Assembly: GCA_903861145.1 (NCBI GenBank)
Contig: CAIOTH010000139.1
Coordinates: 1 to 61,931, forward strand
Direction of reading: 5' to 3'
Length of the DNA: 61,931 nt
Origin: an uncultured Bacteroidota bacterium
GTDB lineage: Bacteria > Bacteroidota > Bacteroidia > Chitinophagales > LD1
A program made the translations under genes and the position numbers. Each line of letters begins with the position of its first letter. Within the stretch, counting starts at the first letter, position 1. Under the pieces are notes generated by a model, which saw nothing but the letters and a program-made list of their open reading frames with translations, was not told where the DNA came from and made no database searches. Shown here piece after piece: positions 2,659 to 2,838 of this stretch.

Positions 2659-2800
2659 AAAAAAAGTGAACCCCGTTAGTAACACCCTCAAGCGTCCGGG
2701 TCTTTACCCTGTCTCTTAGAGCGCCCCCACAATCGCCGTAAAGACTAACATGCCAGTCGTGCTTTTAATGGTGGTGGCCCTAAGCCCGTAACGGGGTTCA
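2659..2800 (-). ncRNA. Structured leader/ncRNA preceding rtcB
   Basis: Between its promoter and rtcB lies about 140 nt without a plausible reading frame. Its two ends are perfectly complementary over 12 bp (2789-2800 with 2667-2678; minus strand TGAACCCCGTTA and TAACGGGGTTCA). The expected transcription start, 4-7 nt after the -7 box, falls on the first base of this helix. Inside, GGGT-AAAG-ACCC (2709-2698) and GACTG-GCATGT-TAGTC (2758-2743) can form hairpins. A local hairpin CCCG-TTA-CGGG (2795-2785) would compete with the closing helix, and seven Ts (2665-2659) follow it, so an attenuator or switch is possible. RNA ligase operons elsewhere (rsr-yrl-rtcBA) carry Y-RNA/tRNA-like RNAs. I see no convincing tRNA cloverleaf here and do not recognise the family. 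Confidence 0.65.
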
Positions 2801-2803
2801 GTG

Positions 2804-2838
2804 CAAAGGTAAACACATGATTTTACTTTACATAATAT
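2804..2838 (-). promoter_or_regulatory. Promoter of the rtcB leader with a shared upstream element
   Basis: The minus strand carries TACCTTTG (2811-2804), a perfect TAnnTTTG -7 box. Upstream, instead of a canonical TTG -33 box, is ATATTATGTAAAGTA (2838-2824), 12 nt from the -7 box. The same 15 bp occur with the same 12-nt spacing upstream of the small gene at 5062-5238, pointing to a common regulator or sigma factor. Confidence 0.6.

Follow-up and report, generated by a model that had tools for sequence, protein, structure and literature searches.

A candidate structured leader RNA upstream of rtcB in an uncultured Bacteroidota bacterium, and an unrelated two-hairpin leader in Flavobacteriaceae

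Introduction

Genes of the RNA ligase RtcB can be accompanied by structured RNAs: some rtcBA operons also encode Y RNAs (PMC7790460). The best-understood inducer of RNA-repair operons is the proteobacterial RtcR, which answers damaged tRNAs (PMC7790460). Here, we analyzed a stretch of 61,931 nt from an uncultured Bacteroidota bacterium (assembly GCA_903861145.1, contig CAIOTH010000139.1, positions 1 to 61,931; hereafter the window), in which a first-pass annotation had proposed a structured, promoter-proximal RNA upstream of rtcB.

The proposed RNA resembles YrlA and the other Y RNAs of rsr-yrlBA-rtcBA operons in its adjacency to rtcB, its paired ends, its branched interior and its similar size, and its predicted 12-bp helix would give it the closing stem formed by the ends of Y RNAs. 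In contrast to these systems, which present a tRNA-like module and a Ro60 partner, it shows no tRNA-like fold, and no Ro60 was found among the tested ORFs of the window. With attenuators it shares a 5′ hairpin that excludes a terminator-like stem followed by seven Ts, but its stem closes a branched interior of 110 nt, and neither a sensor element nor a leader peptide is part of the prediction. Retron ncRNAs also carry inverted repeats that pair both ends, but the neighbor of this RNA encodes an RNA ligase. We rejected a retron ncRNA because no reverse transcriptase family was detected among the window ORFs given to Pfam, the flanks being rtcB, a phosphoesterase gene and ORFs without Pfam family. 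Our literature search recognized no description of an rtcB-leader RNA in Bacteroidota, although an earlier description may exist.

Results

Gene neighborhood of the rtcB unit

The rtcB unit and the genes upstream of it lie on the minus strand of the window:

134-1252, minus: calcineurin-like metallophosphoesterase (PF00149, E 8.3e-14; start 1252 chosen, the ORF extends to 1366)
1269-2645, minus: rtcB, 458 aa (PF01139, E 1.7e-37)
2859-4902, minus: four ORFs (148/163, 152, 117 and 255 aa) upstream of the leader, without Pfam family
4940-4960, minus: inverted repeat CTGCGCAAATATAGTGCGTAG, here ahead of the four ORFs and 2.3 kb upstream of rtcB; roughly half of the relatives studied have this repeat in front of rtcB
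5062-5256, minus: short ORF whose product matches the C-terminal half of cREC (PF20274, E 1.1e-7, profile positions 44-87 of 88; searched as 5062-5241)

PMC7824862 presents cREC as a domain predicted to process cyclic phosphates and associated with RNA ligases and WYL domains; the N-terminal half of the domain is absent from the ORF found here. Two neighbors of 152 and 163 aa (3986-4947, minus) are paralogous, with ~76% DNA identity in blocks and 65% protein identity, and have no Pfam family. For the 255-aa upstream protein, searches of 298 genomes of the order, of viral contigs and of plasmids returned no relative. Relatives of the phosphoesterase (E ≤ 1e-20) were found in 16 of the 298 genomes, the window genome included, and none was present in the flanks examined at other rtcB loci. 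Farther upstream, the window encodes a viperin of the prokaryotic type (NF038283, E 3.5e-91) and, separately, a viperin-associated cytidylate-kinase-like protein (5757-7183, minus), followed by type I restriction-modification genes for HsdR, the specificity subunit and HsdM (8937-18365, minus) with a YhcG/DUF1016 nuclease between them.

An rtcB gene of the window type (E ≤ 1e-150) was absent from the 17 other genomes of the genus that were examined. The rtcB unit is therefore patchy in its distribution, which suggests that it was probably acquired.

A structured region between an rtcB promoter and the gene

The proposed leader and its promoter comprise the following elements, P2, P3 and P4 being taken from the predicted fold:

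2659-2800, minus: proposed leader RNA, 142 nt with the T tract counted (supported by its fold; a single copy in the genome)
2824-2836, minus: upstream promoter element ATTATGTAAAGTA, common to 5266-5278
2804-2811, minus: -7 box TACCTTTG, ending 4 nt ahead of P1
2789-2800, minus: 5′ arm of the closing helix P1, TGAACCCCGTTA, perfect complement of TAACGGGGTTCA over 12 bp
2667-2678, minus: 3′ arm of P1, TAACGGGGTTCA, perfect complement of TGAACCCCGTTA
2659-2665, minus: T7 tract, proposed tail of an intrinsic terminator, separated from P1 by a single C (2666)
2785-2795, minus: competing 5′ hairpin CCCG-UUA-CGGG, which uses the 5′ strand of P1 (prefix folding)
2715-2784, minus: helix P2 (2784-2777 with 2722-2715) and its inner part
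2681-2709, minus: hairpins P3 (2709-2698) and P4 (2696-2681)
2738-2745 with 2700-2707, minus: possible pseudoknot of 8 bp, GUCUUUAC/GUAAAGAC, perfectly complementary and excluding P3
5246-5278, minus: second copy of the promoter pattern, with spacing identical to the leader promoter

The elements named in the first-pass annotation are thus present in the sequence or its predicted fold: the complementary 12-mers, the internal hairpins and the T7 tract, and also TACCTTTG (2811-2804), placed as described four bases before the helix, which we take to be a -7 box of the Bacteroidota type. P1 contains six G/C among its 12 bp, and the T7 tract begins one base after it. The predicted fold has P1 spanning 134 nt and closing a branched interior of ~110 nt, and the start codon of rtcB lies 13 nt past the T tract. 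The promoter box, the helix and the T tract are spaced such that the RNA is predicted to start and end at the arms of P1.

We evaluated how unusual this arrangement is relative to shuffled sequences. The minus strand of 2659-2800 folds with a minimum free energy of -53.4 kcal/mol (shuffle mean -40.7; z = -3.72), which none of 200 shuffles equaled. The plus strand also folds, with z = -2.95; it is nearly as unusual, which counts against a leader reading. Dinucleotide shuffling of the 142-nt region, repeated 2000 times, did not once produce a perfect 12-bp stem, the longest being 11 bp (6 of 2000). Over the whole window, a perfect 12-bp inverted repeat is by itself not rare: 0.85 spanning at most 200 nt are expected per shuffled window and five with arms of at least 12 bp are present. 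When an arm with at least six G/C and a T6 within 9 nt were required, none of 60 shuffled windows presented such a case. Runs of at least seven Ts occur three times in the 6,407 bases outside the 40 listed ORFs, both strands counted.

These statistics bear on the possibility that the region has no RNA function and is a chance inverted repeat, or one left by a mobile element (a MITE, an integron attC site or similar), in an intergenic gap. The frequency of such stems per 62 kb and the restriction of the sequence to a single genome are consistent with this explanation. Nevertheless, a genome search found the leader region in a single copy, no target-site duplication was seen and the fold is branched, and the stem is aligned with both the promoter and the T tract; we consider an absence of RNA function quite unlikely. 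A MITE was rejected on the single copy. An integron attC site has RYYYAAC as its 5′ core site and GTTRRRY as its 3′ core site. The arms of P1 present the inverted order by eye (GTTA in the 5′ arm and TAAC in the 3′ arm) and the fold is not a hairpin, and we rejected an attC site as well. By eye, attC-like ends do precede rtcB in some relatives, which would favor a mobile-element origin: in five loci (L032, L033, L036, L042 and L043) the stretch upstream of rtcB ends in GTTAT(A/G)(T/G)GC and is followed by a conserved AGCAGAC-like motif. The resemblance of these stretches to integron attC ends suggests that those rtcB genes may be cassettes.

The folding of successive prefixes is consistent with the two mutually exclusive folds proposed in the first-pass annotation. 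Three pairs of the 5′ hairpin (2795-2785) are present in prefixes of 30-120 nt and lost at 128 nt and beyond, where the closing helix appears. This switch between 120 and 128 nt argues for a leader that would end in a terminator. A G/C-rich stem directly before a T tract, as in intrinsic terminators, is present, but this stem is long-range: its span of 134 nt, unlike the usual short hairpin, counts against termination, as does a scan for consensus terminators, which found nothing at the P1/T7 site. The scan would be silent on this site because it covers only loops of 3-8 nt. T-rich stretches are also common in the 5′ leaders of Bacteroidota, which counts against the terminator reading.

Promoter pattern and its second copy

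The pattern ATTATGTAAAGTA-N12-TAnnTTTG has two exact matches in the window (0.09 expected at ≤3 mismatches), and these are also the only two exact matches in the whole genome: one before the leader RNA and the other directly before the cREC ORF. Since the genome presents 10 matches at ≤3 mismatches and eight for the reversed control, only the exact pair is meaningful. This pair suggests that the leader-rtcB and cREC-fragment transcripts may be co-regulated. A TTTG box of the same kind follows an operator repeat in the rtcB promoters of relatives.

Comparison with known RNA families

The first-pass annotation could match the RNA to no known family, and neither could we. At the gathering threshold, Rfam detected only a tRNA (20516-20586) in the whole window; at E ≤ 10 around the leader, it returned only a chance match to mir-363 beside the RNA (2619-2650; E 5.7). 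The YrlA model (RF02553) had no match up to E 10 in 2600-2900, and no Ro60/TROVE gene was detected among the window ORFs given to Pfam. We rejected YrlA identity given that the family model fails and no tRNA-like module was found; tRNA identity was rejected for want of a tRNA-like fold.

These comparisons also bear on whether the region encodes a trans-acting small RNA, either Y-RNA-like or a substrate of RtcB, whose paired ends would protect or present it and which would be bound by a repair protein or circularized by RtcB. Such a role would fit the end-to-end closing helix, the multibranched interior, the T tract and the adjacency to rtcB, and it has a precedent in the Y RNAs of some rtcBA operons (PMC7790460); one rtcB operon of Flavobacteriaceae also has a sub-threshold YrlA match (36.8 bits; gathering threshold 69). 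However, the failure of YrlA at E ≤ 10, the lack of a tRNA-like fold and of Ro60/TROVE among the ORFs given to Pfam argue against it, and no Rfam ribozyme family matched that could make 5′-OH and 2′,3′-cyclic ends. We regard a trans-acting RNA as unlikely.

Search for relatives of the leader

We gathered 146 rtcB loci (80 from species genomes, of 329 candidates, 38 viral and 28 from further genomes), some of which are duplicated. In 142 rtcB upstream regions, BLASTN returned a single match of 13 nt and nhmmer none. A covariance model of the window RNA alone (R1, one sequence given twice) identified nothing credible in 98 of the 146 loci. An R1 search of the phylum at E ≤ 0.1 (395 genomes) also gave nothing credible, and one of the order at E ≤ 1 (396 genomes) gave, besides the window, six weak matches, none of them credible; the two genome sets overlap, and at most seven candidates per genome were scored with stricter filters, such that distant relatives could be missed. 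The best two of the six (L231 and L232; per-genome E 0.005 and 0.008) were rejected as leader relatives, since they lie inside long ORFs and chance could account for them in a search of 396 genomes. The remaining four are partial matches of 16-17 bits.

Other sequence collections gave the same picture. BLASTN of the leader returned four and nine short matches in plasmids and phages, respectively (E 2-6; chance), and in 30 genomes of the family 25 had a match at E ≤ 1, all of which, except the window itself, were 15-32 nt long with E ≥ 0.05. In viral contigs, 33 stretches were retrieved by the stem pattern and 10 by a 17-mer, none supported by R1, and the stem combined with the interior retrieved no stretch. 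Some rtcB upstream regions do contain stems of at least 9 bp (G-U pairs included) with a T run after them. The longest, at L045 (15 bp, spanning 44 nt), was rejected as a counterpart: it looks like an ordinary terminator of the upstream gene and has nothing in common with P1.

As no homologue was found, there is no covariation evidence for P1. The first-pass annotation is upheld regarding a promoter-proximal structured RNA upstream of the rtcB-phosphoesterase unit, whereas the roles it proposes, a substrate, a guide or an attenuator responsive to RNA damage, are speculative. That this RNA is a conserved part of the RtcB unit is not supported, as no homologue was found in the 142 upstream regions, the 98 loci or the two genome sets; judged by these searches, the leader is an orphan sequence. 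The lack of a conserved stem at homologous rtcB loci speaks against conservation, not against the existence of the RNA.

An operator repeat upstream of rtcB genes

The inverted repeat CTRCGCA-N6-8-TGCGYAG (≤2 mismatches) was found upstream of rtcB in 49 of 99 distinct genomic regions and in none of 33 viral ones, the usual spacing to a TTTG box being 10-13 nt; for the reversed control pattern, 2 of 132 regions matched. The genome of the window contains 16 sites of this operator repeat (nine exact), compared with none for the reversed control. We read by eye seven of the exact sites outside the window, and several are not beside RNA-repair genes, which indicates that, in this genome, the repeat is not confined to RNA repair. 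The CTRCGCA-N7-TGCGYAG sites of the genome appear to define a wide regulon. A WYL-domain gene (PF13280) adjoins many of the leader loci of Flavobacteriaceae described below, and this adjacency suggests that a WYL protein may bind the repeat.

The leader promoter of the window has no operator 12-13 nt before its TTTG box: the sole repeat of the window (4940-4960) lies 2.1 kb upstream of the promoter, and no TTTG box follows it on either strand at a distance of 12-13 nt, the customary one. In relatives, rtcB usually begins 28-50 nt after the operator, whereas the rtcB of the window begins 158 nt after the -7 box. This difference suggests that the leader is an addition.

A second, unrelated leader RNA in Flavobacteriaceae

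The upstream regions revealed a hairpin common to seven rtcB leaders of Flavobacteriia, from which we built a second model (R2). Searched against 69 rtcB loci, R2 matched eight, namely the seven sources and L086 (E 2e-6), while three matches at E 2.9-4.4 represent noise. In whole genomes, six of the seven source genomes matched, with one extra copy in Croceitalea, and R2 was found in 15 of 239 genomes of Flavobacteriaceae (E ≤ 0.05). In total, the RNA is represented by 22 distinct loci, including L088 (2391-2491), L262 (1501-1598), L263-L269 and L271-L276. In six loci searched against Rfam (E ≤ 0.05), this RNA matched no family.

The RNA consists of two hairpins. The first is variable in sequence and folds in most members (single-sequence folds; it was left out of the covariation analysis). 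In the second, 9 of 10 pairs are changed on both sides across the 22 distinct sequences. Its cells pair in 93.2% of cases versus 82.7% for the shuffled mean, and sliding the partner reduces pairing to 31-45%. The covariation score is 0.519 versus 0.301, and none of 500 shuffles scored as high; the measure of further pair types is not above shuffles (177 of 500).

The position of this RNA is constant. In all 22 loci an operator of the CTACGCA-N7-TGCGCAG type (≤2 mismatches) precedes the TTTG box by 12-13 nt, and in all 22 the two-hairpin RNA lies 12-13 nt behind the operator. An rtcB gene follows on the same strand within 4.1 kb in 21 of the 22, mostly directly after the RNA. The second copy of Croceitalea (L262) lies beside a WYL gene, and no ORF of at least 70 aa starts on the same strand in the next 670 nt.

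Two loci carry further RNAs between the two-hairpin RNA and rtcB. At L278 (11716-17125, minus), an operon-like series comprises the two-hairpin RNA, tRNA-Pro, GOLLD, tRNA-Tyr, a YrlA-like RNA, a Band_7 gene, a 275-aa ORF and rtcB; GOLLD (124.9 bits; gathering threshold 150) and the YrlA-like RNA (36.8 bits; gathering threshold 69), on the same strand, are both sub-threshold. Beyond rtcB lie an RNase_T and two RlaP proteins. At L280 (2545-6299), a 112-nt tRNA match (2658-2769; 56.4 bits) comes after the two-hairpin RNA, and then a 624-aa ORF without Pfam family and rtcB. The tRNA match has an extra stretch in the anticodon arm and is possibly an intron-bearing tRNA or a target of damage.

R2 does not extend to the window. 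It had no match there up to E 5; with filters off, the best match in 2500-5500 had E 3.7 and was not at the leader. It is absent from the window genome, and among 18 genomes of the genus a single one matched, at E 0.57. Both RNAs are structured, belong to Bacteroidota and start at the -7 box of an rtcB promoter, but the RNA of Flavobacteriaceae has two separate hairpins, no T tract and another sequence, whereas the leader of the window forms a closed structure. The window leader is not a member of R2 and is at most an analogue. That rtcB units of this phylum can have a structured RNA of their own is supported for the window only by analogy, through a different RNA family. The Flavobacteriaceae loci show that rtcB transcripts in Bacteroidota can begin with a dedicated structured RNA.

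The absence of a T tract from the Flavobacteriaceae leader offers no support for termination as a shared principle. Together with its usual position directly before rtcB, it is consistent with another explanation for the window, an ordinary long structured 5′ UTR that would tune translation or mRNA stability of rtcB with neither termination nor a separate RNA. The promoter upstream, the start codon 13 nt after the T tract and the unusually stable structure would all fit such a UTR, but P1 and T7 stand in the register of a terminator, and we think this explanation improbable.

Discussion

Our preferred reading is that the region encodes a lineage-specific structured leader of the rtcB-phosphoesterase transcript in which P1 and the T tract would act as a terminator, to which we give a tentative probability of about 45%. 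Besides the folding switch described above, this reading draws on the presence of an unrelated, covarying structured leader in the same position in Flavobacteriaceae.

From the sequence, the rarity of the fold, the promoter match and the gene order, we infer a start site, termination, read-through and any regulation as follows. Transcription would start ~4-6 nt after the -7 box. The 5′ arm of P1 would be made first and held in the small hairpin. The 3′ arm would emerge ~110 nt later, displace this hairpin and close P1 just before the T tract. Closed P1 and the T tract would form an intrinsic terminator, and the main product would be a discrete RNA of ~135-142 nt with paired ends. Polymerases failing to close P1 would read through into rtcB and the phosphoesterase gene.

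A more specific version of the terminating leader, which we judge very unlikely, is that it serves as a fuse for RNA damage. The stem pairs the opening bases of a 134-nt RNA with its closing ones, such that cleavage at any point of the 110-nt interior would remove the terminator. If the interior were cut before the 3′ arm is made, the terminator would be lost and rtcB turned on. RtcB would then seal the cut, joining 2′,3′-cyclic phosphate to 5′-OH, restore the leader and turn itself off. If this were true, the leaders of the window and of Flavobacteriaceae would be independent solutions in which the RNA heading a repair transcript reports on the state of RNA.

The RNA of the window is one sequence without relatives, and the weight of the finding comes from the unrelated leader of Flavobacteriaceae, which covaries strongly, always follows a single type of operator and is unmatched in Rfam. 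That leader is testable in cultivable members of the family. A structured leader ahead of rtcB would constitute a layer of control in which RNA, the substrate of the pathway, could itself be the sensor.
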